This document shows, one piece after another, positions 5,804-27,246 of a stretch of DNA of 64,000 nt. The translations under genes were made by a program, and so were the position numbers. Location: positions 1 to 64,000 of the forward strand of contig NZ_JABTCF010000017.1 in assembly GCF_014596745.1 (NCBI RefSeq), in the 5' to 3' direction. Numbering within the stretch: the stretch's first letter is position 1; every line of letters starts with the position of its first letter. Origin of the DNA: Maribacter aquimaris (lineage in GTDB: Bacteria; Bacteroidota; Bacteroidia; Flavobacteriales; Flavobacteriaceae). The notes under the pieces were generated by a model. It was not told the origin of the DNA, did not search any database, and worked only from the letters and a program-made list of their open reading frames with translations.

Positions 5804-6550
5804 ATGAAAACCTATTTATTAATAATATCTTTTAGTCTTACCTTAATTTCTTGTAATCAAAATGAGTTTGTATTTAATGCAGGAATTGGAGGCAATACTA
5901 CTATTGATTTGTTGAATAGAATTAACGAAGACGTCATTGATAAAGAGCCAAATATTGTGATAATTATGGTTGGAACAAATGATATGTTGAATTCCAAAAA
6001 AATGATTTCATATATTGAATATAAACAAAATCTGACAAGTATTATACATAAATTAAAACAAGAAAACATTAAAATTGTTTTATGTAGCCCTCCAACTGTT
6101 GATTCAATTTTCCTTTTCGAAAGACACAACAAAAAATTATTTACAGAAAAGCCAAACAAAAAACTTGATTCAATATCTAATATTATCGACAAATTATCTA
6201 CCGAAGAAAATATAAGTTTTATAGACTTAAATACTAAATTTCGTGAAATGAATATTCCAATTCATAACAATGACAATTATATACAAAATAAAAAAAACAG
6301 CAACAAAAGAGATGGAGTTCACCCAACTGAATTAGGATATTCTTTAATCGCCGAAACAATATTTTCATTTTTAACAGAAAATAATTTAATAAATCAAAAA
6401 ACGAAAATTGTCTGCTTTGGAGACTCAATCACTTTTGGTGTTGGTGCTAAAGGAGAAGGAACCTCAAATGGAACTACATATCCAGCAATTCTAAAAGAAA
6501 ATATAACAAAAACTTTTGCTAACACCGGTAACCGTTGCACAAGCCTTTAA
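5804..6550 (+). CDS. SGNH/GDSL hydrolase with circularly permuted motif order
   Basis: 248 aa with a lipoprotein-like signal (lipobox LISC, Cys-17). Motifs in order: block II NAGIGGNTT (25-33), block III GTND (57-60), block V DGVHP with Asp170/His173, and only then block I FGDSITFG with the predicted nucleophile Ser208. In ordinary SGNH enzymes the GDS block is N-terminal. Downstream of GDS the text YPAILKENI is what normally links block I to block II, so the order is a rotation rather than a loss. The last ten residues (ANTGNRCTSL) are encoded by attC 6 and the inserted MITE, which supplies the stop. Alternative: a remnant of a two-domain SGNH protein. Secreted esterase-type activity is inferred. 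Confidence 0.75.
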   Translation: MKTYLLIISFSLTLISCNQNEFVFNAGIGGNTTIDLLNRINEDVIDKEPNIVIIMVGTNDMLNSKKMISYIEYKQNLTSIIHKLKQENIKIVLCSPPTVDSIFLFERHNKKLFTEKPNKKLDSISNIIDKLSTEENISFIDLNTKFREMNIPIHNNDNYIQNKKNSNKRDGVHPTELGYSLIAETIFSFLTENNLINQKTKIVCFGDSITFGVGAKGEGTSNGTTYPAILKENITKTFANTGNRCTSL

Positions 6551-6671
6551 TCAGACATAATATCATCGATATAAGCCTCTCCAAGGGGCTTTTTTTTATG
6601 CATACCTAAAGTTACGATCCTTGTCCCTATCGCCATAGATCGACAAAGACTTTTTTCTTAACTTGTGCAAC
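6534..6671. mobile_element. attC-nested MITE, copy 1 (138 bp)
   Basis: Bounded by GTTGCACAAG and its exact complement CTTGTGCAAC. No ORF. Empty-site comparison with attC 8 (AACA|ATGTATAACC) shows the full insertion also brings NNGGTAACC on the left and AGGCACA on the right, with no obvious target duplication. Confidence 0.8.
6572..6597 (+). terminator. Terminator-like hairpin in MITE copy 1
   Basis: AAGCC..GGCTT stem followed by eight T's, in the direction that would end transcripts from the upstream cassette. The same hairpin lies at the same place in every full copy of the element. Confidence 0.7.
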
Positions 6672-6827
6672 AGGCACAATGTATAACCGCAATTACGGCG
6701 GATTCGACCACGTCCGAATCCACTCGGAATTGCTAATGTCTGCGCCAAACAGAAAATAATCGCATATTAACCCGTAACTGACGGTTATACTAGACCGTTA
6801 TGCTCAATTTCTAAAAACCGAACATCC

Positions 6828-8099
6828 TTGAAAAAAATGAACTATTTCAGACTATTACTTCTCTTATTAATTGTTTCATATTCAAATTTATTTGCTCAAA
6901 CTTATGATGGTTTTTCAAACGAGGAAATTCAGTCCGTATTTAAGCAATGGAATATGGATAATTGGGATGATGGAGGTGAAATATCTCGTTATATATTTTT
7001 AAATATGCCTGAATTTTGGACTCACGCCATAATCAATAGAGAAGGAAATGTTAAAAGCCTAAAAGAAGATTACCGCAAAGAAATCGAGGAGTTTGTTGTT
7101 ACTTCTGAATTAGGACAAATGACACTTCAAGACTATGTCAAAACTTGCGACAAAGTGGATGGTATGATAATATTGCAAGGAGACCGTATTGTATATGAAG
7201 CCTACCCAAGAATGTTTTCAAACGATAAGCATCTTTACTGGTCAGTATCTAAAGTATTTGCTTCAACTCTTATAGCAGTTTTGGAAGACAGAAAACAACT
7301 TGATGTAACAAAACCAATAGAACATTATCTACCTGAACTTAAAGGGTCTGGATGGGAAGGTGTACCCATAATTGACATTCTTGATATGGCTTCAGGAATT
7401 GATTGTCGTGAATGGGTTGATGGCGCTTTTGAAAACCCTGAAACTTGTTACTATCAATTTGAAGCAGCTCTTGGATTTCTAAAACGAACAGAAAAAACCG
7501 CAGACAATGCTTTTGAGCACATTAAAACCTTATCATCTGCAAAAACTTCTGGAGAAATATTTGAATATACTTCAGTGAACACTTTCGTTCTCTCTTGCCT
7601 CATAGAAAGAATCACAGGTCTTTCTTATGCAGAAAATATTGAGCGTGAAATTTGGCGAAAAATTGGTGCGGAATCTGATGCATTTATTACACAAACAAAT
7701 GGCACGAGTGTATCTCACGCAGGAATCAGTTCTACACTTCGAGATTTAGCTCGATTTGGCTATATGTTTTTAACCGATGGTCGTTCAGGTGATAATACTT
7801 TCGTTTCAAATGAATATTTCGATAAGATTCAAAAGCAAGGTCGTCCTCATTTGATTACTGCATACGGTTCTGAAAATTACACGCTTGATAAAGAAGCTGT
7901 TCATCACAACACCTATCAATGGGACAAAGTAATGGAAGACGGAGATTTTTATAAAGGTGGATTTAGCGGACAAGGTCTTTACATTTCACCTTCTCGCAAT
8001 TTAGTGATAGCCTTTTTTGGAACTGCCGATGATAATGGAGTTTATAACGAATTAGATGATATTTCAAGACAAATTGCTAAATCAGATATATTTGATTAA
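6828..8099 (+). CDS. Secreted serine hydrolase, beta-lactamase/PBP fold
   Basis: 423 aa from TTG at 6828; the ATG at 6837 is the alternative, but the TTG start keeps the MKKMNYF positive region of the signal peptide, which ends around LFAQ. SxxK is Ser139-Val-Ser-Lys142 in YWSVSKVFAS, followed by a FEYTSVN second motif. The N-terminal 100 residues before the catalytic domain are longer than in minimal members. C-terminal GGFSGQGLYISPS is the usual third-motif region. Periplasmic or secreted; substrate unknown. Cassette 6 ends (GTTATGCTC at 6797, GAGCATAAC at 8120) match perfectly. Confidence 0.8.
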   Translation: MKKMNYFRLLLLLLIVSYSNLFAQTYDGFSNEEIQSVFKQWNMDNWDDGGEISRYIFLNMPEFWTHAIINREGNVKSLKEDYRKEIEEFVVTSELGQMTLQDYVKTCDKVDGMIILQGDRIVYEAYPRMFSNDKHLYWSVSKVFASTLIAVLEDRKQLDVTKPIEHYLPELKGSGWEGVPIIDILDMASGIDCREWVDGAFENPETCYYQFEAALGFLKRTEKTADNAFEHIKTLSSAKTSGEIFEYTSVNTFVLSCLIERITGLSYAENIEREIWRKIGAESDAFITQTNGTSVSHAGISSTLRDLARFGYMFLTDGRSGDNTFVSNEYFDKIQKQGRPHLITAYGSENYTLDKEAVHHNTYQWDKVMEDGDFYKGGFSGQGLYISPSRNLVIAFFGTADDNGVYNELDDISRQIAKSDIFD

Positions 8100-8121
8100 T
8101 AATAGAATTGAATTAAAAAGA

Positions 8122-8482
8122 GCATAACATTGGTAACCGTTGCACAAGCCTTTAATCAGACATAATATCATCAAAATAAGCCTCTTCAGGGGCTTTTTTT
8201 TATACCTACCTAAAGTTACGATCCTTGTCCCTATCGGCAATGATCAACAAAGACTTTTTTCTTAACTTGTGCAACAGGCACACAACCTATAAACAATACA
8301 GGCTTAGGGCTTTAACGCAGAAGTCTGTGTATATTTATAATGTCGCGAAATCTTTGGCCCCGAAGCGTCGGGGTCGCTTTGTACAAGAAAAAAATAAAAC
8401 AAAACCAAAAGATTTCGCTATGTGTGTGGCGCAAAGTAAACGGTAGTTTGCTCCCGTACTGTTCATAGCTAAACCGTTGGCT
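8122..8482 (+). other. attC site 7 (long form) with nested MITE
   Basis: R'' GCATAAC ends at 8128; R' GTTGGCT at 8476-8482. After the MITE the body CCTATAAACAATACAG pairs with CTGTTCATAG. The middle holds the CCCCGAAGCGTCGGGG palindrome at 8358-8373 and a second inner inverted pair (AAATCTTTGG / CCAAAAGATTT). About 361 bp in total, with no gene. Confidence 0.8.
8139..8275. mobile_element. attC-nested MITE, copy 2 (137 bp)
   Basis: GTTGCACAAG at 8139-8148 and CTTGTGCAAC at 8266-8275, with the AAGCC..GGCTTTTTTTT hairpin inside. Left junction AACA-TT-GGTAACC. Confidence 0.8.
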
Positions 8483-8516
8483 GTAATGTAAAACGACATT
8501 CCCGAAAACAAAGAAA

Positions 8517-8984
8517 ATGACCCAATCTGAACTTATAATTTTAAATTTTACAGAAATAAGGAGAAGAAGTATAAAACTTTGGAATGGACTACCTGAGAAA
8601 TATTATAATTGGAAACCTGACGAAAAAGCTATGAGTGCGTCAGAAATGATAAGACACGTTTTGGAAGCTGATTATGGATGGAATCTTATTATTAATCAAA
8701 GAGATATGACAAATTATAAAACACCTTGGGAAAACCGACCATTCATTAACGTTACTGATGAACTTGAATTTGCCGAACCTTATAGAAAAACATTTATAGA
8801 AAGTGTATGGCAATTTTCGGATACGGAATTAAACGAAACCGAAATCATTCATCCAGGGAACGGAGAAAAGAAAATACTTGGAAAATATCTATTGCGGATT
8901 GGATATCACGAATCAGTTCACGCAGGACAATTTTTGTCGTATTTAAGAGCAATGAAAATTGATAGACCAAAAATATGGGATTAA
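8517..8984 (+). CDS. DinB-like metal-binding four-helix protein
   Basis: 155 aa, no signal peptide. Three histidines fit the DinB/YfiT metal triad: His47 in SASEMIRHVLEADY and His131/His135 in GYHESVHAGQF. DinB-superfamily proteins are four-helix bundles, some acting as thiol-dependent S-transferases; the biochemical role here is unknown. The start ATG at 8517 follows AAGAAA and is 41 bp after the cassette start. Sole gene of cassette 7, whose ends (GTTGGCTGTA at 8476, TACAGCCAAC at 8993) are exact complements. Confidence 0.8.
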   Translation: MTQSELIILNFTEIRRRSIKLWNGLPEKYYNWKPDEKAMSASEMIRHVLEADYGWNLIINQRDMTNYKTPWENRPFINVTDELEFAEPYRKTFIESVWQFSDTELNETEIIHPGNGEKKILGKYLLRIGYHESVHAGQFLSYLRAMKIDRPKIWD

Positions 8985-8995
8985 AAAAACACTAC

Positions 8996-9129
8996 AGCCA
9001 ACAATGTATAACCGCAATTACGGCGGATTCGACTACGTCCGAATCAACTCGGAATTGCTAATGTCTGCGCCAAACAGAAAATAATCGCTAATTTAACCCG
9101 TAACTGACGGTTATACTAGACCGTTGTGC
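8996..9129 (+). other. attC site 8 (uninterrupted reference site)
   Basis: R'' AGCCAAC at 8996-9002, then AATGTATAACCGCAATTACG, inner stems, GACGGTTATAC and R' GTTGTGC at 9123-9129. Same body as attC 6 and attC 9 but without the MITE, so it defines the empty insertion site. Confidence 0.9.
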
Positions 9130-9242
9130 ATAATGCGAAAATCGCACAAAACATCAACATTTGAAATAAAAATGTTAACAACCGAATCACAATAATAATT
9201 AATAAAAATAATTAAATATTTACACCTTTTAACGGTATGTTT

Positions 9243-9965
9243 TTATTTGGCATCAAACCAAAAATCAACAGTTATCTTTTCCGCTGTTGAACTTGGTTCT
9301 TGTCTATTTTGACCTCTCATTCCGCCACGTCCACTTCCATTTCCTCTACGTCCGCCACCACTTCGCATCCCTTGGTTTTGACCTTGACCTCTTTCTTTGT
9401 TTATATTTCCTTCCATTTTATTTGAAACAACACCAATGGATAGTTTAGAAAAATCACTATTTTCTTTGGATAATATTTTTGTTTTTGGAATTTTAATTGA
9501 AAATTCAAATAATTGACTCGAAGCTGTATAATGGTTTTCAATCGCAATATCTAAAGTATTTAAGTCCTTATTAAACTCTTGCTTTTCTTCAAATGAACTA
9601 TATTAAGCTTCTGCAGGTAGTTTTTCAATCATACTATTTAAGTCAATAGTATTTGAGTCATTATTTCCTCGGGAACCTTGGCGAGATTGTCTTGGTTCGG
9701 TACTATAGGGATATTTTACATACACATCCTTTTTTTTCTTTCCCTTGATGTCGTAATAAACGGTAAGGCCTGTTCTAATTATTGACATAGAGGTCTTTGT
9801 GTCTGTAGTACTTATGTTTAAGTAAACATAATTGTCATCTTGTGAAACTTTATATAAAATGTTCTCATTGGATACTTGTGTTGTATCCGCGGGAAAATTT
9901 GTTGTATTTGAAGCAAAAGAATAAAGGCTTGAAAGTAGTGTAAGTAAAATCGCTAAATGTTTCAT
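9243..9965 (-). pseudogene. RGG-tailed secreted protein, broken by one nonsense codon
   Basis: Read on the minus strand from the ATG at 9965, the first 120 residues carry a signal peptide (MKHLAILLTLLSSLYSFAS) and a domain matching the intact paralog at 10426-11187 (YYDIKGKKKKDVYVKYP versus YFDVKGKKKKNVSIQYP). A TAA at 9603-9605 stops it just after LPAEA. In the same frame the homology continues without further stops (YSSFEEKQEFNKDLN, FSKLSIGVVSNK, a Gly/Arg-rich stretch, and a VDFWFDAK end) to the real stop at 9243. So this is a full-length gene with a single in-frame nonsense mutation, or a recoded or suppressed gene. Function unknown. Confidence 0.75.
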
Positions 9966-10425
9966 TTTTTGTAATTATTAGAGTTTAGAATTCTGATTTA
10001 AATATTCATACGATATAAAGACTATTCTATTTTAAAAAAGTTTAATTATTTCAAAAAAAATAAAATTCTAAGTTCCAATAACTGTAGCATAGACTTCAAT
10101 ATAGCTTCCAGCCCACAAAATCATAAAAATCTCATCGATAAAAAAAGACTTTCTGTCTAGACAATTACCCCAAACGTCTATCGGTTGATCGTAAAATATA
10201 ATAAAATTTCACCTTTGTAGTGTTACATCAATTCATTTAAAAGCTAAAATTATAGCTCATCCTTCCAGATTTTTTCAGTGTCAGTTTTCTTTTCCTCAAG
10301 GCGATGTCACTGTGAATTCCCAAAATATGGAAGTAGGTTTTATGGTTAAAGAAGTTTTGTAGCGGACTAAAATAATTAGGACTAAGAAAAACAAAAATTA
10401 ACGAGACTGAAATAAAACAATAACC
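9966..10425. other. Intergenic region between the two RGG-type paralogs
   Basis: About 460 bp between the minus-strand pseudogene and the plus-strand gene, likely holding both promoters. It contains the regulatory box at 10136-10178 and a long leader after about 10220 for the + gene. No ORF or attC is visible. Confidence 0.6.
10136..10218 (+). promoter_or_regulatory. Shared upstream box A and putative promoter
   Basis: A 43-bp block at 10136-10178 (CGATAAAAAAAGAC, then TAGACAATTA, then CCCAAACGTC) is repeated with few changes at 11339-11381. In both cases a TTTCAC(C/A)TTTGTAG motif, resembling a -7 TAnnTTTG box, follows 27-29 bp later. This suggests a common activator site with a fixed distance to the promoter. 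The regulator is not in the window. Confidence 0.6.
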
Positions 10426-11187
10426 ATGAAAATAAAATTAGCGATCCTACATTTCTTAATTTGTAGTGTTATTATTGCCCAGGATGAATCTACGTTTATG
10501 GGGAGTGAAGATAATATTGAATACAAAGCAAATTTTGATGGTAAAGATTTGTATGTAACACTACATGCAGAGTTCAAAGAGACCATGCAAGTTATGCTTC
10601 ACCGTGGGTATACAATATATTTTGATGTAAAAGGGAAGAAAAAGAAAAATGTAAGCATACAATACCCTTTAAAAACAGAGCTTCCAGAAAAAGGTACTAG
10701 GCCTGAAAGAGGTGAGCGTAGCGGAAATGGCGAGCAAAATGGTCCGGATATCAATAAAATGCTAGAAAACCTTCCAAAAACGGCAAATTATACAAGTTAC
10801 GATTCATCTCAAGATTTTAATTTGGATTTAAATAGTTTGGGAATTGAAATGAATTATAGTTATGAAGAAAGTACGGAAGTGGGTCCAATTTTAGAATTCC
10901 ATTTAAAGATTCCTGCTTCAAAGATTATAAAGGAAAATGAAGATCTCTCAAAATTATCTATTGGAGTTGTTTCTACCAAGCAAGAACAACAGGAAAACCG
11001 CTCACAACCTACTATGACAACTGGTGGTAGACAAGGTGGTCGTTCTGGAGGTGGTCGTTCTGGAGGTGGCCGTTCTGGTGGCCGTGGAGGTGCCGGAAGA
11101 GGAAATGGTGGCGGACTACCACAAGGTAATGCAACCCAACAAGAGGTAAAGTTAGATTTTTGGTTTGAACTTAACCCTAAAAAATAA
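10426..11187 (+). CDS. Secreted Gly/Arg-rich (RGG-repeat) protein
   Basis: 253 aa with a signal peptide (ILHFLICSVIIAQ). Residues 30-190 form a beta-rich domain shared with the broken paralog at 9243-9965. Residues about 200-235 are a low-complexity Gly/Arg/Ser tract (GGRSGGGRSGGGRSGG). The end LDFWFELNPKK also matches the paralog. No family recognised; extracytoplasmic by signal. The start is the first ATG after the leader. It lies inside the 2.5-kb multi-gene cassette 8, preceded by box A and followed by a strong terminator, so it is an autonomous transcription unit. Confidence 0.75.
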   Translation: MKIKLAILHFLICSVIIAQDESTFMGSEDNIEYKANFDGKDLYVTLHAEFKETMQVMLHRGYTIYFDVKGKKKKNVSIQYPLKTELPEKGTRPERGERSGNGEQNGPDINKMLENLPKTANYTSYDSSQDFNLDLNSLGIEMNYSYEESTEVGPILEFHLKIPASKIIKENEDLSKLSIGVVSTKQEQQENRSQPTMTTGGRQGGRSGGGRSGGGRSGGRGGAGRGNGGGLPQGNATQQEVKLDFWFELNPKK

Positions 11188-11209
11188 TAAGATTACGAAT
11201 ACTTATTTA

Positions 11210-11246
11210 AAAACCGGTTACTAAATTGTAACCGGTTTTTTTATTT
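11210..11246 (+). terminator. Rho-independent terminator
   Basis: AAACCGGTTAC, loop, GTAACCGGTTTTTTT: a 10-bp perfect stem and a T-tract 22 bp after the RGG gene stop. Confidence 0.85.
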
Positions 11247-11338
11247 AAAATTTTTAAATAATTCGTGATATGTGATCACTTGTAGGGGTGTGCAAAGCAA
11301 TTAATTTAACGTAAGGATGACTTGCCCAAAAATCCCGT

Positions 11339-11420
11339 CGATAAAAAAAGACGTTCTATATAGACAATTAGCCCAAACATCCATTACTTTATTAAGGTAG
11401 CATTTAGTTTCACATTTGTA
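11339..11420 (+). promoter_or_regulatory. Shared upstream box B and putative promoter
   Basis: Second copy of the 43-bp block seen at 10136 (CGATAAAAAAAGAC, TAGACAATTA, GCCCAAAC), followed by TTTCACATTTGTAG 27 bp on, directly before the TolC fragment. It implies the RGG gene and the TolC-like gene were controlled together. Confidence 0.6.
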
Positions 11421-11443
11421 GTATTAATGTAAAACACACAAAA

Positions 11444-11644
11444 ATGAAATTATATCTCATCATAGCGAGCTTTTTAATCGTGCAATTTTCAAATGCACAA
11501 GAGGCTTATAATACTTCAACACCAAAAGTGTGGTCTTTAGACGAATGTATTGCCTACGCCATAGAAAACAACATAACTGTTAAAGATGCACTTTTAAATA
11601 CCAATATTGCAGAAGTAAATTATGACAGGGCAAAATCAACGTGA
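11444..11644 (+). pseudogene. TolC-family outer-membrane channel, N-terminal fragment
   Basis: 66 aa: signal peptide (ASFLIVQFSNAQ) and then WSLDECIAYAIENNITVKDA and LNTNIAEVNYDRAKS, the opening repeat helix of TolC-type proteins (usually 430-480 aa). A stop follows and the cassette's R'' TATGCACAAC comes 8 bp later. The rest of the channel is missing, so cassette end formation appears to have captured only the 5' part of an efflux operon. Non-functional as a channel. Confidence 0.75.
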
Positions 11645-11654
11645 AAAGCACTAT

Positions 11655-11940
11655 GCACAACAACGGTAACCGTTGCACAAGCCTTTAATTAGACATAATA
11701 TCATCAAAATAAGCCTCTTCAGGGGCTTTTTTTAATACCTACCTAAAATTACGATCCTTGTCCCTATCGGCAATGATCGACAAAGACTTTTTTCTTAACT
11801 TGTGCAATAGGCACAAGGTATAACCGCAATTACGGCGGATTCGACTACGTCATAATCCACTCGGAATTGCTAAGGTCTGTGCTAAACCGAAAATTAACGC
11901 ATATTAACCCGTAACTGACGGTTATACGAGATCGTTATGG
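11655..11940 (+). other. attC site 9 with nested MITE
   Basis: R'' TATGCACAAC (11652-11661) exactly complements the cassette start GTTGTGCATA at 9123, so the whole 9123-11661 block is one cassette. After the MITE the body is GGTATAACCGCAATTACGG; R' GTTATGG at 11934-11940. Confidence 0.85.
11672..11808. mobile_element. attC-nested MITE, copy 3 (137 bp)
   Basis: GTTGCACAAG at 11672-11681 and CTTGTGCAAT at 11799-11808 (last base changed). Terminator-like hairpin at about 11711-11734. Confidence 0.8.
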
Positions 11941-11973
11941 CAAATCAACAAAAGGAGAATAAATACATTTAGA

Positions 11974-13026
11974 ATGAAAAATATTTTATTGCTAGTAGCA
12001 GTAGCAGCAATATCATTAATCGGTTGTAATCAGATAAATACCCCATTAAACAAGGTGGTACCTCAGGTAGAAATGGAGAAAATTTTCAATGAGATTAAAA
12101 CTCCGTTTAAATATGGTGTTGTTGTTCAACATCCTGATTCCACAAAAATGGTTGACAGTCCAACTATCTTTCGCAAAAACGATATCTGGTATATGACTTA
12201 CATTGTTTTTGATGGTCAAGGGTATGAAACTTGGTTATCGGAAAGCGATGATTTGCTCAATTGGGAATCTAAAGGAAAAATATTATCGTTTACAGAAAAT
12301 ACATGGGATGCCAACCAAAAAGCCGGGTACGTATCCCTTATTAATACCGATTGGGGTGGTGATTACACCGTAGAAAATTATCAAGACAAATACTGGATGA
12401 CCTACTTGGGTGGAAACACAGCTGGATACGAATCAGGCACATTAAAAATTGGCTTGGCAAATTCCACCTCTTTAACTGAAGCTGATGAATGGAATACAAA
12501 TAATCCTCCTCTTTTGTCTCCTGAGGATGAAGATGTTCGTTGGTTTGAGAACAAAACTATCTACAAAAGTTTGGTCATTCGTGATAGCAGCAAGCATACA
12601 GGACATCCCTTCGTTATGTATTATAACGCTAAGGGAGATACTGCTAACTATGAAAGTATTGCAATGGCTGTATCTGACGACATGGTTAGGTGGAAACGAT
12701 ATGGAGAAAATCCGGTTATTACGAGAGGAAAAGGCATTTGTGGTGATGCACAGATTGCTAAAATCGGTGATATTTACGTAATGTTCTATTTTGGAGCATT
12801 CTGGAAACCCGGTGCTTTTGAACGGTTTGCCTGCTCGTACAATTTAATAAATTGGACAGATTGGGAAGGAGAAGACTTGTTAGCTTCTTCAGAAGAGTAT
12901 GATAAAAAGTATGCCCATAAACCCTGGGTAATAAAATGGAATGGAGTTGTTTACCACTTTTACAATGCCGTAGGTAATAGTGGTAGAGTGATTGCATTAG
13001 CGACATCGAAAGATTTAACAAAATGA
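11974..13026 (+). CDS. Five-bladed beta-propeller lipoprotein (GH43/GH130-like)
   Basis: 350 aa; lipobox LIGC at about residue 18. The remainder shows repeated propeller-blade text: VDSPTIFRKNDIWYMTYIVFDGQGYETWLSES, YQDKYWMTYLGG, HPFVMYYNAKGD, MAVSDDMVRWKRYG and KIGDIYVMFYFGAF. This is the layout of GH43/GH62/GH130-like glycosidases and phosphorylases acting on plant or algal glycans. VDSP is a candidate for the catalytic-base blade; I could not fix the acid. Cassette 9 ends GTTATGGCAA (11934) and TTGCCATAAC (13028) are exact complements. Likely surface or periplasmic. Confidence 0.75.
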   Translation: MKNILLLVAVAAISLIGCNQINTPLNKVVPQVEMEKIFNEIKTPFKYGVVVQHPDSTKMVDSPTIFRKNDIWYMTYIVFDGQGYETWLSESDDLLNWESKGKILSFTENTWDANQKAGYVSLINTDWGGDYTVENYQDKYWMTYLGGNTAGYESGTLKIGLANSTSLTEADEWNTNNPPLLSPEDEDVRWFENKTIYKSLVIRDSSKHTGHPFVMYYNAKGDTANYESIAMAVSDDMVRWKRYGENPVITRGKGICGDAQIAKIGDIYVMFYFGAFWKPGAFERFACSYNLINWTDWEGEDLLASSEEYDKKYAHKPWVIKWNGVVYHFYNAVGNSGRVIALATSKDLTK

Positions 13027-13030
13027 CTTG

Positions 13031-13225
13031 CCATAACACAGGTAACCGTTGCACAAGCCTTTAATCAGACATAATATCATCAATATAAGCCTCTTCAAGG
13101 GGCTTTTTTTTATACCTACCTAAAGTTACGATCCTTGTCCCTATCGGCAATGATCGACAAAGACTTTTTTCTTAACTTGTGCAACAGGCACAATGTATAT
13201 AAAAAATAGGCGAAATAGTAATAAA
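13031..13225 (+). other. attC site 10, right half lost, with nested MITE
   Basis: R'' TTGCCATAAC and the MITE are intact and followed by ATGTATATAAAAAATAGGCG, but no matching right arm or R' box is seen before the next gene. The next cassette therefore lacks a recognisable 5' end: a deletion fused two cassettes. Confidence 0.65.
13048..13185. mobile_element. attC-nested MITE, copy 4 (138 bp)
   Basis: GTTGCACAAG at 13048-13057 and CTTGTGCAAC at 13176-13185; hairpin-T-tract inside. Left junction AACA-CA-GGTAACC. Confidence 0.8.
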
Positions 13226-15945: not shown

Positions 15946-16329
15946 GTACAACAATGGTAACCGTTGCACAAGCCTTTAATTAGACATAATATCATTAATA
16001 TAAGCCTCTTCAGCTGGCTTTTTTTTATGCCTACCTAAAGTTACGATTCTTGTCCCTATCGGCAATGATCGACAAAGACTTTTTTCTTAACTTGTGCAAC
16101 AGGTACAAAACCTATAATCAATAGGGGCTTCGGGCTTAATCGAAAGGTTTGTGTATTTTTATGAAGTGCGCAAAATCTTTGGCCCCGAAGCGTCGGGGTA
16201 GCTTTGGAACAAAAAAGCAAAACAATAAGCTTTAGCTACGTGCGAAGATGGAAACCGGCCAACGCGCAACTCGCCCGCTGCTGTCGCAGACGGCGTACCT
16301 CCGCACTACGCATAGCCAAATCGTTACCA
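15946..16329 (+). other. attC site 12 (long form) with nested MITE
   Basis: R'' GTACAAC at 15946-15952; after the MITE the body CCTATAATCAATAGG; CCCCGAAGCGTCGGGG palindrome at 16183-16198; right arm CGCATAGCC and R' GTTACCA at 16323-16329. About 384 bp, no gene. Confidence 0.8.
15963..16100. mobile_element. attC-nested MITE, copy 5 (138 bp)
   Basis: GTTGCACAAG at 15963-15972, CTTGTGCAAC at 16091-16100. The hairpin loop side differs (TCTTCAGCT) but the AAGCC/GGCTT stem is kept. Confidence 0.8.
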
Positions 16330-17948: not shown

Positions 17949-18259
17949 TGCTAACAACGGTAACCGTTGCACAAGCCTTTTATTAGACATAATATCATCA
18001 ATATAAGCCTCTTCAAGGGGCTTTTTTTTTATGCATACCTAAAGTTACGATCCTTGTCCCTATCGGCAATGATCGACAAAGACTTTTTTCTTAACTTGTG
18101 CAACAGGCACACCGTATAATAATCATGGCTTGGTTATCCCCTACTTACGAACCCCAAAGCGTCGGGGCTCGCGGATTTTCTCCCGAACCATCGGGACGGT
18201 TTTTATTTACTAAATTACGTGCTTAAACACGCAACTAACCATACACAAACACGTTAGGT
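17949..18259 (+). other. attC site 14 with nested MITE
   Basis: R'' TGCTAAC at 17949-17955; body ACCGTATAATAATCATGGC after the MITE; degenerate CCCCAAAGCGTCGGGG at 18152-18167 and CCCGAACCATCGGGA nearby; right arm AACTAACCATACAC and R' GTTAGGT at 18253-18259, a perfect GTTRRRY match. Confidence 0.85.
17966..18104. mobile_element. attC-nested MITE, copy 6 (139 bp)
   Basis: GTTGCACAAG at 17966-17975, CTTGTGCAAC at 18095-18104, terminator-like hairpin between. Confidence 0.8.
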
Positions 18260-19860: not shown

Positions 19861-19873
19861 GGATTTCCAAATT

Positions 19874-20056
19874 ATGGACATGCAAAAATTCAAACTTTTA
19901 TTGACCACGAGTCAAAACGAATCCGATGGAATTGTCAAAAAAATAGCCATTAGATTAAGGTGCTATGTAAAACCACCTTTCGAAGAACCAATGCTTAATC
20001 TTTTAAGAAGAAAATATCTGAATTTTAGCAAAAGTGGTTTAGAGCTTCAAGAATAA
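19874..20056 (+). CDS. Small hypothetical ORF after the transporter
   Basis: 60 aa, basic (KKIAIRLRCYVKPPFEEPML), no domain known. It starts 13 bp after the transporter stop, so it may be co-translated, and ends 5 bp before the R'' box. It could equally be the 5' piece of a longer gene cut at cassette formation. Confidence 0.4.
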   Translation: MDMQKFKLLLTTSQNESDGIVKKIAIRLRCYVKPPFEEPMLNLLRRKYLNFSKSGLELQE

Positions 20057-20061
20057 ACTAC

Positions 20062-20300
20062 ACCTAACACCGGTAACCGTTGCACAAGCCTTTAATTAGA
20101 CATAATATCATCAATATAAGCCTCTTCAAGGGGCTTTTTTTTATGCATACCTAAAGTTACGATCCTTGTCCCTATCGGCAATGATCTTCAAAAACTTTTT
20201 TTTGCCAACTTGTGCAACAGGTACAACGGCTATAACAAATAGGTCGTTAAGTGCTGAATCCATTAGCTTGGGAAGAGTATAAAACCTATGAAGCGTATCT
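20062..20300 (+). other. attC site 15, damaged, with nested MITE
   Basis: R'' ACCTAAC at 20062-20068 and the MITE are clear; after it CGGCTATAACAAATAGG looks like an attC left arm, but no R' box complementary to the next cassette's end (AGAGCACAAC at 22005) was found. Confidence 0.6.
20079..20218. mobile_element. attC-nested MITE, copy 7 (140 bp)
   Basis: GTTGCACAAG at 20079-20088, CTTGTGCAAC at 20209-20218; right end slightly diverged (TTTTGCCAACTTG). Terminator-like hairpin inside. Confidence 0.8.
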
Positions 20301-20501
20301 TTCTCAAGTATCTAGCCGAACCTCGAAATCACTCTACCCTTTAAACTAATTCATTGTTCTAAATATCTTATCTTCAAACTTAAAACCAAACATACGAGCC
20401 GAACCGTTCTGCTTCATTATGACAAGCCGATGATTGTCGAATTAACTACCTCCTAGCCCTACACCCATCCTAAAACCTCATTATTTGTAACAATAGATAG
20501 T

Positions 20502-20530
20502 TTTGAATCTACTTATTTTTACTATATTTG
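20502..20530 (+). promoter_or_regulatory. Bacteroidota-type promoter for the ATPase gene
   Basis: TTTG at 20502-20505 and TATATTTG at 20523-20530, spacing 17 bp, about 19 bp before the ATG. The best-formed promoter seen inside the array. Confidence 0.75.
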
Positions 20531-20548
20531 TTATTTTAAGATGAAAAT

Positions 20549-21997
20549 ATGGCAATGCTAAATCTTATTCCGACAGAAAAGATTATTGAACGTCTTCGTT
20601 ATGAAAATCCATGGTGGATTACGAAAGAGATACCGAACACATATAGTTCAATGTCCAAGAGATTATACTTTGAGCTCTTTTATCCATTCGTCCTCGAAAG
20701 GAGTATTAAAAGGGCTTTAGTTCTAATGGGGCCCAGAAGAGTTGGTAAAACTGTAATGTTATTTCATTGCATTGAAAATTTATTAAAACAAGGAACAAAT
20801 CCTCATAAACTATTCTTTATCGGGATTGACAACCCAATTTATGTGAATTTAAGCCTGGAGGATGTTTTAACTTTATGCAAAGATTCTTTAAACCTTGAAA
20901 ACCTAAATGGTTGTTACGTCTTCTTTGATGAAATACAATACTTGAAAGATTGGGAAAGACATTTAAAAGTATTGGTTGACTCCTATCCTGAAACTAAATT
21001 CATCGTTTCTGGCTCAGCAGCCGCAGCTTTGAAATGGCACAGTACGGAAAGTGGAGCGGGTAGATTCACTGATTTCTTATTACCTCCATTAACATTTCAG
21101 GAATATATTCATTTGAAAAAATTAGACCACTTAATATTTACAGGTGATATTCAATATGGAGACAAGGATATAAAGTATTGCTTAACTCATAATCCCAAAG
21201 CATTAAATAAAGAATTTGTCCATTATTTAAATTTTGGAGGATACCCAGAGGTTGTGTTATCTGAAAAAATACAAGGCGATATGGATAGATATGTGAAAAA
21301 CGACATTGTAGACAAAGTTCTGCTTAGAGATTTGCCAAGCTTGTATGGAATCAAAGATGTTCAGGAGTTAAATAGATTTTTTACATACATAGCTTATAAT
21401 ACTGGTAATGAATTCTCATATGAGACAATGTCTAGGGAAAGTGGTATTCAAAAGGATACATTAAAAAAATATCTAGAATATTTAGAAGCAGCATTCTTAA
21501 TTAAGGTACTAAATAAGGTTGGGGTCAATGCAAAAAGATTAAAAAGAATAACTAGCTTCAAAGTATATCTTACCAACCCATCACTTCGCACTGCTTTATT
21601 TTCCCCGATAAGTGAAACAGACCAAGAAATGGGAAACATGGTTGAAACAGCAATTCTTTCACAATGGATGCATCGAGAGCAACTAGATTTAACATATGCT
21701 AGATGGAAAGACGGCAGGAATAAAGGAGAAGTGGATCTAGTTTTGGTAGATGATAAAAATTATAAACCTGTTTGGGGAGTAGAAATTAAATGGAGTAACC
21801 GATATTTTGATAAACCACAAGAATTGAAAAGTTTAATTAAATTTTGTGATGCAAATAACCTTAAATCTGCAGTTGTCACTTCAATTGATCAAATAGGAAC
21901 GAAAGAAATACAAGGTTTGAGATTCATTTTTCTTCCCGCTTCAATATATGCATACAATATTGGAGAGATTACCCTAAAAATGAAAACTAATAATTAA
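20549..21997 (+). CDS. AAA-family ATPase with DUF4143 C-terminal domain
   Basis: 482 aa, cytoplasmic. Walker A GPRRVGKT at residues 61-68, Walker B CYVFFDEIQYLKDW near 120, sensor-like FIVSGSAAAAL near 150. The second half shows the DUF4143 pattern, ending with the PD-(D/E)xK-like core GEVDLVLVDD..WGVEIKWS. Such proteins are common, widely transferred, and poorly understood; a nuclease or DNA-linked role is only suggested by the DVDLV/EIKW motif. It has its own promoter. The end AGAGCACAAC marks the cassette's R''; the 5' boundary is lost. Confidence 0.85.
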   Translation: MAMLNLIPTEKIIERLRYENPWWITKEIPNTYSSMSKRLYFELFYPFVLERSIKRALVLMGPRRVGKTVMLFHCIENLLKQGTNPHKLFFIGIDNPIYVNLSLEDVLTLCKDSLNLENLNGCYVFFDEIQYLKDWERHLKVLVDSYPETKFIVSGSAAAALKWHSTESGAGRFTDFLLPPLTFQEYIHLKKLDHLIFTGDIQYGDKDIKYCLTHNPKALNKEFVHYLNFGGYPEVVLSEKIQGDMDRYVKNDIVDKVLLRDLPSLYGIKDVQELNRFFTYIAYNTGNEFSYETMSRESGIQKDTLKKYLEYLEAAFLIKVLNKVGVNAKRLKRITSFKVYLTNPSLRTALFSPISETDQEMGNMVETAILSQWMHREQLDLTYARWKDGRNKGEVDLVLVDDKNYKPVWGVEIKWSNRYFDKPQELKSLIKFCDANNLKSAVVTSIDQIGTKEIQGLRFIFLPASIYAYNIGEITLKMKTNN

Positions 21998-22007
21998 AAA
22001 AATGAGA

Positions 22008-22295
22008 GCACAACAACGGTAACCGTTGCACAAGCCTTTAATCAGACATAATATCATCATTATAAGCCTCTTCAAGGGGCTTTTTTTATGCCTACCGAAA
22101 GTTACGATCGATCACCCGATCGGCAATGATCGACAAAGACATTTTTCACTAACTTGTGCAACAGGCACACCGTATAAAATTAATTGCTATTTTGTGCTTA
22201 ACCAATGTCAGTTGCTTTGCTTGCTAGCTTCTGATTTTCCTTCGGAAAATCCTCGCATACAAACCCGCTACTATTCTTATACATAAACGTTAGCA
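22008..22295 (+). other. attC site 16 with nested MITE
   Basis: R'' GCACAAC at 22008-22014; body CACCGTATAAAATTAATTGC after the MITE; GATTTTCCTTCGGAAAATC hairpin; right arm CTTATACAT and R' GTTAGCA at 22289-22295. The body is close to attC 4. Confidence 0.8.
22025..22162. mobile_element. attC-nested MITE, copy 8 (138 bp)
   Basis: GTTGCACAAG at 22025-22034, CTTGTGCAAC at 22153-22162. Its interior (CCGAAAGTTACGATCGATC) is closer to the transposase-bearing relative at 41638 than other copies are. Confidence 0.8.
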
Positions 22296-22384
22296 CCAAG
22301 TGAGACAAATGTAAAATTCAGAAATAGGTAGACTAAAAATTTAATCACTTTTAGTTAAACTTATCTAATTTAATTTTTAAAAAA

Positions 22385-23878
22385 ATGAGCTTTAAAAAAC
22401 AACCAAAATCAAATGTACTATCAACAAGGATTGCAGATATATATTTAACGACACCTATCTTGTTAATTGTAATATGTTTTTGTTTACCAAATTTTGCATA
22501 TTCTCAGGAAAAAGAATCAGAACAGACATGGGAACTACCAGAACTGATGAATCCACAAGTAAATGTAAAGGTTACTGCTAAATATTCTGAAGTAAAAGAT
22601 ACTATTCCAGTTCGTGGGACACAGTATATGATTCGAGTTCCTGAAAATTGGAATGGCATTTTATTTAGCGATTTGGATTATCTGGAGTCGGCCAACTCCG
22701 AAAGGAACCTTTACCTTTTGGAACATGGTTATGCTTTGTCTGGTACCAAACGTCGCCCTGAAAGATTTTCTAAATACGATCCTGCTCACGAAATTCACGA
22801 TATTATTTCAGTACTCGATATTTTTGAACAAACCTTTGGGCAACCAAAACATGTTATTCAACTGGGATGTTCGGGAGGTGGTACTATCACACTAGCAATG
22901 GCAGAAATTCACCCTGACCGTATAGATGGGGGTATAGCTGGATGTGCTGCTACTAGCCCTTGGATGGCCAATACTCATATGGATGCACTCTTTGTATTAC
23001 AAGCCTTAATTGCTCCAGAATTGCCCATTGTTGGGCTTCCATTAAAAGGAAAGGAAATAGAAAGAGTTGAAAAAGGATGGCAAGAAGCTATAGAGACCGC
23101 ACAGCAAACCCCAGAAGGGCGTGCGCGAATTGCTTTAGCATTTACCATTGGTCAATGGCCAGCTTGGGGTGCTGCTTGGATGGATGCTTTCCCACAACCT
23201 AATGTAGGCAATGCAGATGAACTTCAGGAAAGCATGTATAAATGCTTGATGAAATTGTTACCATCTCAAAAAGCTTTTGGTACTGGTATGCTAGAGCAAG
23301 CAGGAGGCGGACAGCTGAGGTTTAACAACGGTGTTGATTATGCTGAGTATTTTAAAAATGGAAATCCCGATTATAAAATGGCTGTAGAGAAATTATACGT
23401 TCAAGCAGAGATTAAGCTGGAAGATGAACTTATGAAAATAAATGCAGCTCCTAGGGTAAATGCCGATGAGCAAGCTTTGGCGTATTGGAGCGTACCGGGA
23501 CGAACACATATTGGAGAGCCTAAAGTTCCACTTTTACGCATAAACACAAGTGGCGATGGCTTAGTATACTCAAGCATGGCACAAGGTTATGGCGAATTGG
23601 TAACTGAAAAAGGCTATGCCAAGCTTTTTCGTCAGGCCTACGTTAATAGTTGGGGACATTGCACTTTTACTTTAGGTGAATGGTTAGCCGCTATTGAAAC
23701 GATGGTACAACGAGTTGAAACAGGAGAATGGCCAAATACTGACCCTGAAACATTGAATTCTCTCGGTAAATCTTTAGATACCAAAAGTGAAGTACGTTAT
23801 TTTGAGCATCAGCCTGTTGGAAAATACAATAGAACTTGGTGTCCTTCAGTTGATGATTTCATTGATAATCCAGAGTAA
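22385..23878 (+). CDS. Secreted alpha/beta hydrolase
   Basis: 497 aa. A long n-region precedes the hydrophobic segment LTTPILLIVICFCLPNFAYS, giving export. Nucleophile elbow LGCSGGG (Ser163) lies in a typical strand-turn-helix. The acid and His are probably in LLRINTSGDGLVY and NSWGHCTF near residues 385 and 425. WNGILFSDLDY and YALSGTKRRPERF resemble the large secreted hydrolases of the tannase/feruloyl-esterase-like group, but the substrate is unknown. Cassette start GTTAGCACCA (22289) has no matching end before 25.7 kb. Confidence 0.75.
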   Translation: MSFKKQPKSNVLSTRIADIYLTTPILLIVICFCLPNFAYSQEKESEQTWELPELMNPQVNVKVTAKYSEVKDTIPVRGTQYMIRVPENWNGILFSDLDYLESANSERNLYLLEHGYALSGTKRRPERFSKYDPAHEIHDIISVLDIFEQTFGQPKHVIQLGCSGGGTITLAMAEIHPDRIDGGIAGCAATSPWMANTHMDALFVLQALIAPELPIVGLPLKGKEIERVEKGWQEAIETAQQTPEGRARIALAFTIGQWPAWGAAWMDAFPQPNVGNADELQESMYKCLMKLLPSQKAFGTGMLEQAGGGQLRFNNGVDYAEYFKNGNPDYKMAVEKLYVQAEIKLEDELMKINAAPRVNADEQALAYWSVPGRTHIGEPKVPLLRINTSGDGLVYSSMAQGYGELVTEKGYAKLFRQAYVNSWGHCTFTLGEWLAAIETMVQRVETGEWPNTDPETLNSLGKSLDTKSEVRYFEHQPVGKYNRTWCPSVDDFIDNPE

Positions 23879-24029
23879 ATCATAATTAAAGAAAAAGTAA
23901 CTTTACAGAGAAGGGAGGTGAAACAAGTTTGACTTTAATACTAAAAATATTGCCTGTGACTTCTCTGCTCCGCCCTATTTGTCATAGCATGATTGTAAGC
24001 ACAACTCCAGTTTTCCCATCTAAAATATT

Positions 24030-24069
24030 AAAGTGTGATTTTGAAATATATTCAGAATCACACTTTTTT
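24030..24069 (+). terminator. Rho-independent terminator
   Basis: AAGTGTGATT, loop, AATCACACTTTTTT: 10-bp stem and T-tract about 150 bp after the hydrolase stop. Confidence 0.85.
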
Positions 24070-24177
24070 CTGTAAAAAACTTAACGTATAAGTCATAATT
24101 TGTTTACAATTAAGAATTTGGTAAATAATAACTTCGTTATTTGAGACTTAAATTATTAATCTTAAATAACATCATTT

Positions 24178-24816
24178 TTGAAAATGAATAAAATAATATT
24201 TACAACCTGTCTTCTACTAAGTTTATTTTCATGTAAAGAAAAAACAGATACTTCAACGTCAAACGCATATAAAAATGAAGACATTGAGACTATTGACAAA
24301 CAAACAGCGACCCCAAAGTTTAGCGACCCTAATGGATGTAGCCAATACACAACACTTTACGAAGCATTACCGCATTTAGATACTTATAAAAACATGGAGT
24401 TTCGTACCATGGAATGCATGTTTCAAAAACAAAGCGAAACGGCTTCTTGGACAAGTTTAAATACGTCCTATTTCGATCCTGAATCTAAAAACAAAATGGT
24501 GGTAAACTTTTATGAAATTAATGGAGACGTTACTGTAGAAAGAGATGTAATTAATATGGTAAAAACTACTTACAATGAATTCACTAACATGGCAGATTTT
24601 TACAAAAGCAGCTTAACTATTTTTGAAAATGCATCTGTTAATATTATGGAATCCAATAGCGAAGATGAATACAGTTCTGCAACTTATTTGTGTTCGCATA
24701 AAGATAAATTTGCTCTTTTAATAAAAATTGAAATGTTGGGGCAAATGAATTTAGAAAAAGTAGATTCATTTATTAAAGACTATTTACAAGCCATATCATC
24801 TAAACCATTAAACTAA
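24178..24816 (+). CDS. Hypothetical lipoprotein, paralog 1
   Basis: 212 aa; lipobox LFSC (Cys-19). The mature part contains CSQYTTLYEALPHLDTYKNM, a central Tyr/Asn-rich beta region and a C-terminal helix VDSFIKDYLQAI. It aligns by eye with the next gene over its whole length. Function unknown; outer-membrane or periplasmic. An 8-bp gap to paralog 2 suggests one operon. No attC flanks this pair directly. Confidence 0.75.
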   Translation: MKMNKIIFTTCLLLSLFSCKEKTDTSTSNAYKNEDIETIDKQTATPKFSDPNGCSQYTTLYEALPHLDTYKNMEFRTMECMFQKQSETASWTSLNTSYFDPESKNKMVVNFYEINGDVTVERDVINMVKTTYNEFTNMADFYKSSLTIFENASVNIMESNSEDEYSSATYLCSHKDKFALLIKIEMLGQMNLEKVDSFIKDYLQAISSKPLN

Positions 24817-24824
24817 ATATAAAA

Positions 24825-25406
24825 ATGATGAAAAAACTTGTATTGGTATTTAGTGTGATTTTAGGTTTTGTTTCATGTAAGGAAAACACATCGAAACCGC
24901 TAGCTGAAAACATCCATCAAGAAGCGATAACCAGAGAAACAAAATTTCCAACAAGTGTTGTTAGTTGTGAAAAAAACAAGCATCTCTTTAATACCATTCC
25001 CCATGTTGATAAAATAGCAGATTACACTTTTAAATCCGTTGGCTGTGTTGGAAAAGCAATAGCTGTAAATTATAACGATCCCACAAATGAGTTTTATGAA
25101 TTTCAACTTAGTGTTAAAGAATTAGGAGAAAATAAAGCCATGCTTCAATATGTTAAATTGGGCTATAATACAGCCTCAAAATACAAACTGAACGGGAATG
25201 ATATTAGTGATTTACAAGTATTTGAGAATGCATCTTTAACAACTAAAAGAGAGTCTGAATATGATGATGTTTCTTATAATGCTTCGTATAAAGACAAATA
25301 CATCATTCAAATTGTAATTCGCGGAAAAGAGTTATCAAGCAAAGAACAAGTTGATAATTTCTTGAAAGAATATTTAAAAGCTTTTAAAAAGGAATTTATG
25401 GTATAA
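24825..25406 (+). CDS. Hypothetical lipoprotein, paralog 2
   Basis: 193 aa; lipobox FVSC (Cys-18). Shares with the upstream gene the order C-x-x-x-x-LFNTIPHVDKIADYTFKS..C, DLQVFENASLTT, YKDKYIIQIVI and VDNFLKEYLKAF, so the pair is a tandem duplication. Two conserved Cys around residues 46 and 65 may form a disulphide. Function unknown. Confidence 0.75.
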   Translation: MMKKLVLVFSVILGFVSCKENTSKPLAENIHQEAITRETKFPTSVVSCEKNKHLFNTIPHVDKIADYTFKSVGCVGKAIAVNYNDPTNEFYEFQLSVKELGENKAMLQYVKLGYNTASKYKLNGNDISDLQVFENASLTTKRESEYDDVSYNASYKDKYIIQIVIRGKELSSKEQVDNFLKEYLKAFKKEFMV

Positions 25407-25416
25407 AAAGTCCTAA

Positions 25417-25557
25417 TTGATTCTCATAAAAGATTTAAAAATCAATGAACCTAATCAAGTAAGGGCTTCTGACATAACTTATATTAAAGCTATAAATGGC
25501 TTTTGTTATCTAGCACTTTTTACCGATAGGTATTCACGTAAAATTGTGGGAGTATGA
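25417..25557 (+). pseudogene. IS3-family transposase (OrfB, rve domain) scrap
   Basis: In one frame it reads LILIKDLKINEPNQVRASDI then TYIKAINGFCYLALFTDRYS and RKIVGV-stop. This is the start of the IS3-family integrase core, with the first catalytic Asp in SDITYI. Only about 46 residues remain and no inverted repeats are visible. Inert remnant. Confidence 0.8.
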
Positions 25558-25561
25558 TTTT

Positions 25562-25767
25562 AAGTAATAGTCCCGCTCTGCGAAGTCTGTGACTTCGTAA
25601 CGTAAGTATGTGAGTAAGTGAAAAGAGTAAAATAGCGCAGTCGCTCTTGTCCGTTTTTACCCGAAGCGTCTGGGCTCGCGGATTTTCTTCCGAACCATCG
25701 GGATGGTTTTTATTTACTAAATTCTGTGCTTAAAACACGCAACTAATCATACACAAACCCGTTACCC
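25562..25767 (+). other. attC site 17, left side unclear
   Basis: Right half is typical (CTCGCGGATTTTC, CCGAACCATCGGGATGG, CACGCAACTAATCATACACA, R' GTTACCC at 25761-25767). Left half holds GTAAGTATGTGAGTAAGTG, which may be the pairing arm, plus a repeat unit (AGTCCCGCTCTGCGAAGTCT region) also found at 30958. Confidence 0.6.
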
Positions 25768-25837
25768 ACAATTAGACAACACATTGTAACAAAAAGGAAA
25801 AATAGCGTCTAATAGGAAAATCATCAATCAAAATCAA

Positions 25838-26956
25838 ATGTACAAGTCAATAATTTTATTTCTATTATTAGCAATTAATTTCAATCTAAAAGCACAAAAC
25901 AAACCATTTGAACCAATCGAAAACCAAGACGGTTGGAAAACCGAAAATCTACTTCTAGGAAATCGGAAAATAGAAAAAATGGATAGCCTCGTTTCTGCCA
26001 ACGAGTTCAAACAGATTTCAAGCATAGTAATTTCTCGCAAGGGAAAAGTAATTTTCGAAAATTATTACAACGAAAATAATTCTGACACAAAACATAATAC
26101 ACGTTCTGCAACAAAAACAATAACGGGAACTCTAATTGGAACATTAATTCAACAAGGTTCTATAAAGTCGGTAAGCGAAAAGGCATCTGAATTTTCAAAA
26201 GTTGAGAACTTACAAAATCCTGACAACCGAAAAGACGAAATAACAATCGAAGATTTACTTACAATGTCATCTATTTTGGAATGCGATGATTGGGACCAAA
26301 ATTCTCGTGGTCAAGAAGAAAAAATGTACATTATAGAAGATTGGGTTAAATTTTATTGGGATTTGCCAATTAAAGGATTTCCTGAATGGAAAAAGAAACC
26401 AAAAGATTCTAAATACGGAAGAAGTTACAGTTATTGTACTGCTGGTGTTGTGGTTTTAGGAGATATAATTAACAACGTTTCGGGTTCATTAGAAAAATAT
26501 GCAGAAAAGTCACTTTTTTCTAAATTAGGAATTACGGATTATCATTGGCAATTCACACCGACAGGAATTCCAATGACTGGTGGAGGACTTGGACTTAAAA
26601 GTCGTGATTTACTAAAAATCGGACAACTCTATTTGAACAAAGGAAAATGGAATAAAGAACAAATAATTTCAGAACAATTCGTTAAAAGTTCAACCGAACC
26701 TCACGCAGAAGTTGGAATGTTCGACTATGAATATGGTTATTTATGGTGGTTATCTGAATTTGGACAAGTAAATCAAAAAGACAAAGCATATTTTATGTCT
26801 GGAACAGGAGGAAACAAAATAGTTGTTTTTCCAAAATTAGATATGGTTGTTGTTTTAACAAGTACCTATTTTAACGGAGGAATGGAATCGCATAACCAAA
26901 CGACAAAACTTTTGGACGAATATATAGTTCCCGAAATAAAGAAACTGAATAAATAA
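25838..26956 (+). CDS. Secreted serine hydrolase, beta-lactamase/PBP fold
   Basis: 372 aa with a signal peptide (SIILFLLLAINFNLKAQ). SxxK is Ser90-Ala-Thr-Lys93 in NTRSATKTITG; second motif in RSYSYCTAGV; third region FMSGTGGNKIVV. This is the common single-domain class C-like hydrolase of Bacteroidota; DWDQNSRGQE is a typical loop. Periplasmic; substrate unknown. Cassette 17: GTTACCCACA at 25761, end GGGTAAC at 26961-26967 (core matches, outer bases drifted). Confidence 0.85.
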   Translation: MYKSIILFLLLAINFNLKAQNKPFEPIENQDGWKTENLLLGNRKIEKMDSLVSANEFKQISSIVISRKGKVIFENYYNENNSDTKHNTRSATKTITGTLIGTLIQQGSIKSVSEKASEFSKVENLQNPDNRKDEITIEDLLTMSSILECDDWDQNSRGQEEKMYIIEDWVKFYWDLPIKGFPEWKKKPKDSKYGRSYSYCTAGVVVLGDIINNVSGSLEKYAEKSLFSKLGITDYHWQFTPTGIPMTGGGLGLKSRDLLKIGQLYLNKGKWNKEQIISEQFVKSSTEPHAEVGMFDYEYGYLWWLSEFGQVNQKDKAYFMSGTGGNKIVVFPKLDMVVVLTSTYFNGGMESHNQTTKLLDEYIVPEIKKLNK

Positions 26957-26960
26957 CTGA

Positions 26961-27246
26961 GGGTAACACCGGTAACCGTTGCACAAGCCTTTAATTAGAC
27001 ATAATATCATCAAAATAAGCCTTTTCAATGGGCTTTTTTTCCTGCCTACCTAAAGTTACGATCCTTGTCCCGATCGGCAATGATCGACAAAGACATTTTT
27101 CACTAACTTGTGCAACAGGCACAATACCTATAATCCATTGTGTCGGATTTCCTTTCGGCTAACCAGGGCTTATTTGCCAACGTTGGTCCTAGACGGAATA
27201 GTCCTACCGACATTTTACGCAACGTATCATAGCCAAACCATTGTAA
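26961..27246 (+). other. attC site 18 with nested MITE
   Basis: R'' GGGTAAC at 26961-26967; body ATACCTATAATCCATTGTGT after the MITE; right arm CGTATCATAGCC; R' changed to ATTGTAA at 27240-27246, which should reduce recombination. Confidence 0.7.
26978..27116. mobile_element. attC-nested MITE, copy 9 (139 bp)
   Basis: GTTGCACAAG at 26978-26987, CTTGTGCAAC at 27107-27116. Hairpin loop changed (TTTTCAATG) with the AAGCC/GGCTT stem kept. Confidence 0.8.

Follow-up and report, generated by a model that had tools for sequence, protein, structure and literature searches.

The window analyzed here, the first 64,000 nucleotides of contig NZ_JABTCF010000017.1 of Maribacter aquimaris, carries an array of gene cassettes in which a short, gene-less unit recurs nine times, each copy directly following the R'' box in an attC-like site. 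The question raised by this locus is what these units are and how they came to occupy one base of so many different sites. We propose, with a probability of about 0.9, that they are miniature inverted-repeat transposable elements (MITEs), namely, internal-deletion derivatives of an IS1182-family insertion sequence (IS) which inserts into attC-like sites after R'' and duplicates 4 bp of the form ANNG.

The nine units of 137 to 140 bp reported in the preliminary description of this DNA, which was made from the letters alone, were all recovered with both of their ends, each just after an R'' box (Table 1). These lengths apply between the inverted-repeat ends; with the outer tips included, the elements measure 149 to 152 bp and have the layout GTAACC-GTTGCACAAG ... 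CTTGTGCAA(C/T)-AGG(C/T)AC. Pairwise identity among them is 87.5 to 98.0% (mean, 92.3%), and a single deletion junction is common to all nine. With up to one mismatch allowed, GTTGCACAAG occurs 24 times in the window, compared to 2.95 occurrences expected and a maximum of 6 over 100 shuffles. To the left of each element there is an R''-like box ending in AAC and then ANNG (9/9), and to the right there are four bases followed by an attC-like body with a TATAA-like box. The nine preceding cassette ends are all different, and several attC body types follow. The constant GGTAACC, previously taken for flank, is better divided into the transposon tip GTAACC and the last base of the 4-bp target duplication. 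The span first given, 6527 to 27123, does hold the nine copies, but two more pieces lie beyond it (Table 1, last two rows).

GGTAACCGTTGCACAAG was present in 37 of 397 sampled Flavobacteriaceae genomes (35 of 237 genera), and in the stretches fetched around it, 14 left ends were paired with a right end 1.66 to 1.74 kb further on. A transposase gene lies between the ends on the opposite strand in the 11 elements examined, some of the genes being broken. The transposase belongs to the IS1182 family (NF033551, 359.5 bits; cutoff, 270) and exhibits the Pfam domains DDE_Tnp_1_6 and DUF772 (DDE type). These whole IS1182-family parents, found in other Flavobacteriaceae, are about 1.7 kb long, have the tips GTAACC-GTTGCACAAG on the left and CTTGTGCAAC-AGGCAC on the right, and carry the transposase antisense to the cassettes. 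Their terminal inverted repeats, GTTGCACAAG and CTTGTGCAAC, are inset 6 bases from the tip on either side, bearing out the earlier remark that the repeats are subterminal. Comparison shows the two sides of the window unit to be the two ends of an IS; the MITE has kept these and has lost the transposase gene. Being without that gene, the MITE must, we infer, have been moved in trans by a related transposase.

With the 151-bp MITE as the query, matches were obtained in 25 of 397 genomes, including that of M. aquimaris. In the other 24, no scored match covers both sides of the MITE (left-side matches end by position 85, and right-side matches start at position 63 at the earliest); at most two matches were scored per genome, which leaves room for a whole MITE elsewhere. 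Six other copies in the M. aquimaris genome retain 29 to 60 aa of the transposase C terminus, and within the short MITE itself the transposase match is at chance level. Among the 18 left ends seen in this genome, 17 follow AAC and one follows AAT; three further exact GTTGCACAAG places lack IS sequence, and another proved to be an isolated right end. A 33-bp unit, measured from repeat end to repeat end, was also observed in an attC-like site and consists of nearly just two IS ends (G000:C3:5243-5288; L070, L260). Like other IS-derived MITEs of bacteria, the window elements are short and gene-less, have IS ends, and are accompanied by longer deletion forms in the same genome. The difference is that a single array here contains nine copies, all of them placed at an identical base within a recombination site.

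The target of the parent was read from relatives sampled via the transposase (the best 80 of 145 loci; 35 of 397 genomes; 9 of 395 genomes), because a pattern search would itself have contained the target site. Copies were counted as complete when both ends lay 1550 to 1850 bp apart, and 12 loci with other end types or of doubtful status were left out (L139, L155 to L159, L173, L207, L208, L210, L217, and L219). The 77 distinct complete copies divide into 71 in which the 4-bp flank is preceded by AAC, three with AAT in its place (L104, L124, and L163), and L135, L216, and L193. The junction reads AAC-A or AAT-A in 71/77 copies, and in 69 of these 71 the transposase is antisense to the cassette (unclear in L163). 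Of the 71 copies with AAC, 36 have identical 4-bp flanks, whereas 20,000 permutations gave 10.6 such copies on average and 21 at most. The duplication was first read as 3 bp; this was replaced by 4 bp on the basis of the dif-like group described below and of L119, in which ATTA stands on either side of the element, so that the fourth base is part of the duplicated unit. The earlier statement that there is no clear target duplication thus holds for the window copies but not for the family.

Empty sites were found both in the window and outside it. attC 8 is, as had been noted, the same kind of site without the unit (Table 1), and the M. aquimaris genome contains three exact type-A bodies, two of them filled and the third empty. 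For one body type, 30 distinct sites were readable in the loci fetched by the body-type pattern search: 26 are empty and read AAC-ANNG, 3 read AAT, and 1 is filled. Comparison of filled, empty, and duplicated sites shows that insertion duplicates 4 bp, ANNG. The insertion point of the parent is the same base of attC-like sites across many genera, so the fixed position in several attC body types first noticed for the MITEs is shared by the full-length element: it inserts directly after R'' (AAC) and before L'', which is mostly TATAA-like, nearly always in one orientation. The earlier main reading, a MITE at a fixed position of attC sites, is upheld by the full-length parent and by the empty sites. 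A related IS1182 element was also seen in an attC-like site on a Myroides albus plasmid (L226, NZ_CP102755.1), beside genes annotated as aadS, blaMYO-1, ere(D), and erm(F).

Several observations weigh against the derivation of the units from an attC-targeting IS1182 element. The preliminary description had held that copies confined to attC sites would support targeting; most of the junctions agree with this, but 5/77 copies lie at other sites, namely, L135, L216, and three of the AAC copies (L182, L205, and L206) judged non-attC by their flanks, while L193 is odd. L138 is the sole copy among the 71 with AAC-A or AAT-A in which the transposase gene is in the sense orientation, a TATA-like L'' is absent from 7/71 right flanks, and R'' takes the form RYYYAAC in only 5/71 family sites. 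No whole transposase was found in the M. aquimaris genome at an E value of ≤1e-100, weaker matches not having been looked for. Identical 4-bp flanks were found in 0/9 window MITEs, leaving transposition of the MITE itself without direct proof. Finally, the attC label of the target sites rests on analogy. Since this genome has no integrase over the cutoff (see below) and R'' is seldom RYYYAAC, we call the sites attC-like.

The preliminary description also offered another account, in which the unit is a spacer cassette without an open reading frame (ORF), moved by the integrase and preceded by a minimal attC. On this account the cassette would start with TTGCACAAG and include the whole attC body, the preceding R''-ANN-GGTAACC-G serving as the minimal attC. 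The ends of the unit do resemble R' (GTTGCAC) and R'' (GTGCAAC), and at 42504 the array closes with a copy that is a left end only. However, the constant sequence crosses both of the proposed cassette limits (between G and TT of successive attC sites), no GTAACC-tipped left end among those read adjoins an ordinary attC 3' end, and the unit is bounded on either side by an end of an IS whose relatives have 4-bp duplications. We therefore consider a spacer cassette very improbable. The window unit also differs from an integron gene cassette in that it neither begins nor ends at cassette limits.

The identity of the transposase separates the IS1182-derived MITEs from another group of elements as well. 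An IS110/IS1111-type element was considered because of the subterminal-looking repeats and the attC site and was excluded by the IS1182 transposase and the 4-bp duplication. The IS1111-attC group (ISKpn4, ISPst6) likewise inserts at one end of attC and has inverted repeats inset from the tips, according to PMC11187229. IS1111 transposases, which are of the DEDD type, form circles, whereas an IS1182 transposase and a 4-bp duplication were found here. In function, the known analogue is the IS1111-attC group, whose transposase is of another kind.

The mismatched 4-bp flanks in 9/9 window MITEs, together with the one deletion junction that they have in common, would fit a history in which one or a few insertions were multiplied as segments of the array recombined or were copied, without nine transpositions. 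On the other hand, nine different cassette ends before the elements and several attC body types after them would call for many exchanges, and no whole-block copies were seen. Duplication of whole attC blocks, which had been named as a finding that would speak against targeting, is unsupported, given that the attC bodies and the upstream ORFs differ. We regard such spread by segments as a tentative option rather than the expected one. In our main reading, the mismatched flanks suggest recombination between MITEs, the window copies having probably recombined with one another after insertion and so re-paired cassette ends and attC bodies. This is the simplest reading because an integrase exchange at R' would move R'', MITE, and body as a block, keeping the flanks together.

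The closest known counterparts of the host array itself are integron gene cassettes or clusters of attC sites lacking integron integrases (CALIN arrays). Its ends are in part cassette-like: 6 of 12 R'' boxes have an upstream reverse complement of 9 to 10 bases, the pattern expected where R' opens a cassette and R'' closes it, and the other six have R' partners of 6 to 7 bases or none, so that the limits of those cassettes are putative. Control AAC positions reached at least 9 bases in 48/951 cases, some of which may be real sites. For the attC 8 bottom strand, the fold was better than those of shuffled sequences (z, -2.68), 2/200 of which were equally good. No integron integrase over the TIGR02249 cutoff was found in the M. 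aquimaris genome, in which the best single match was 74.2 bits compared to a cutoff of 265; the assembly may lack parts. Integrons have been recorded in Bacteroidota, as stated in PMC8618304 and PMC2426708. One attC-like body type, searched as a pattern with up to 2 mismatches, was matched in 182 of 359 sampled Flavobacteriaceae genomes, and cassette arrays with this body type look very common in the family. In ten Flavobacteriaceae genomes chosen by eye from the search results (L087 to L096), tyrosine recombinases of about 375 to 390 aa were seen at a distance of 1 to 13 kb from an attC or IS place. Two of them exceed the cutoff of 220 for NF040815, "tyrosine recombinase/integron integrase" (L087, 233.9 bits; L095, 220.8 bits), and both are below the TIGR02249 cutoff. 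These recombinases may be the integrases of the arrays.

Terminator-like sites were scanned for between 6400 and 24000, where 25 were found compared to 10.4 expected. A terminator-like hairpin in the cassette direction is present in 7/8 MITE copies of this stretch, copy 5 being without one. In folds of the bottom strands of the filled sites, the terminal repeat was paired over 10/10 bases in 8/9, the exception being the copy at 11672 (0/10). When copy 1 was folded, an attC stem was seen beside a separate MITE hairpin. A likely effect of insertion would be a terminator behind each affected cassette, another would be disturbance of the R''/L'' core, and the MITEs may provide portable homology for cassette shuffling in a genome without a recognized integron integrase. 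A small minus-strand hairpin was also seen at 11654-11679, 15946-15969, and 22008-22031, formed from R'' and the left tip of the MITE because this tip resembles R'.

Table 1. Coordinates of the MITE copies and related features in the window
Feature	Position	Strand	Details
MITE copy 1, 150 bp	6528..6677	+	After R'' TGCTAAC; 4-bp flanks ACCG / AATG
MITE copy 2, 149 bp	8133..8281	+	After R'' GCATAAC; 4-bp flanks ATTG / ACAA
MITE copy 3, 149 bp	11666..11814	+	After R'' GCACAAC; 4-bp flanks AACG / AAGG; one change in right end (CAAT)
MITE copy 4, 150 bp	13042..13191	+	After R'' CCATAAC; 4-bp flanks ACAG / AATG
MITE copy 5, 150 bp	15957..16106	+	After R'' GTACAAC; 4-bp flanks AATG / AAAA
MITE copy 6, 151 bp	17960..18110	+	After R'' TGCTAAC; 4-bp flanks AACG / ACCG
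MITE copy 7, 152 bp	20073..20224	+	After R'' ACCTAAC; 4-bp flanks ACCG / AACG
MITE copy 8, 150 bp	22019..22168	+	After R'' GCACAAC; 4-bp flanks AACG / ACCG
MITE copy 9, 151 bp	26972..27122	+	After R'' GGGTAAC; 4-bp flanks ACCG / AATA
Terminator-like hairpin in MITE copy 1	6573..6591	+	Terminator scan
attC 8, empty attC-like site, body type A	8996..9129	+	R'' AGCCAAC, AATG, then TATAACCG
Longer diverged copy with 29-aa remnant of transposase C terminus	41632..41969	+	
Left end GTAACC-GTTGCACAAG after AAT-AATG, last in array	42504..42519	+	Without recognized right end in sequence examined

IS1182 elements with a different tip, GTTGCAAAAG, were found in Spirosoma, Fibrisoma, and Hymenobacter (42 to 45% identity to the query in the five compared). 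Their insertion sites are cores with the layout ATAA-N-[4 bp]-N-TTAT, with TTAT at all 18 ends that have the tip, and each of these dif-like loci has one arm 0 to 2 bases away from TTATGTTAA, which we take to be a Xer arm. The 4-bp flanks match in L156, L158, L159, and L229 and do not match in L155/L207 (identical sequences), L157, L208, and L228. Some of the elements with dif-like cores (among L155 to L159, L207, L208, L228, and L229) are on Hymenobacter plasmids. A tree built from 79 transposases placed the rows of the attC and dif-like types in a joint group of 68 (support, 100/100), to which the exceptions L135 and L182 also belong; all 7 dif-like rows cluster with one another, and 11 palindrome-type rows fall outside the attC/dif group. 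Rows were labeled attC by default unless they were named exceptions, and a check of these rows gave AAC-A at the best left end in 54/59, the other five being L212 and L134 (AAC-A at the opposite end) and L104, L124, and L198 (AAT). The dif-like rows join five attC rows weakly (92/55), a joining flagged for long branches, and the root is a midpoint placed for display, with L136 and L169 dropped. For these reasons a single origin of recombinase-site targeting in this IS1182 clade, although likely, falls short of proof.

The transposase could instead read a fold and not the R''/L'' sequence, attC and dif-like sites being targeted as palindromes or hairpin formers in the manner of other IS1182 elements. 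The parent's transposase is of the same family (NF033551) as IS1272 and others, and PMC5678879 cites palindrome or stem-loop targeting by some members and reports that IS1272 replaces stem-loops without target duplication. Some elements related to the parent have inserted into a palindrome or a hairpin loop and are flanked by 4-bp duplications (e.g., L216, L222 to L225, and L173). However, insertion in the attC group is confined to one base adjoining AAC, on the side of R'' and with an almost constant orientation, whereas an attC hairpin would offer further paired positions and a loop, and the palindrome-targeting elements are outside the attC/dif group of the tree, the odd rows L135 and L182 excepted. 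Recognition of a fold seems rather unlikely to us. The elements described here differ from IS1272 in using one base of attC-like sites with a 4-bp duplication and from the IS1182 family in having MITE derivatives within a cassette array. No published title linking IS1182 with attC or dif targeting was found in a search that had ISfinder and most subscription papers outside its range.

Taken with the MITE derivation, these relatives incline us, by a small degree, toward a wider interpretation in which one IS1182 clade is specialized in tyrosine-recombinase cores, landing in the short spacer between the arms of attC-like R''/L'' sites in Flavobacteriia and of dif-like Xer cores in Spirosoma, Fibrisoma, and Hymenobacter, and in which the MITEs may be terminators and shufflers of arrays without a recognized integrase. 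Because related elements sit in dif-like sites, it becomes a testable question whether these transposases recognize the sequence itself, a hairpin fold, or DNA to which a recombinase is bound. The footprint also serves as a record of rearrangement, since cassette exchange at R' should keep the insertion flanks paired, whereas recombination within an element should separate them. In Flavobacteriaceae, the cassette arrays thereby gain a dedicated transposable parasite whose transposase type differs from that of the IS1111-attC elements; its target is exact, its 4-bp footprint can be read, and its MITEs would carry a terminator behind cassettes.

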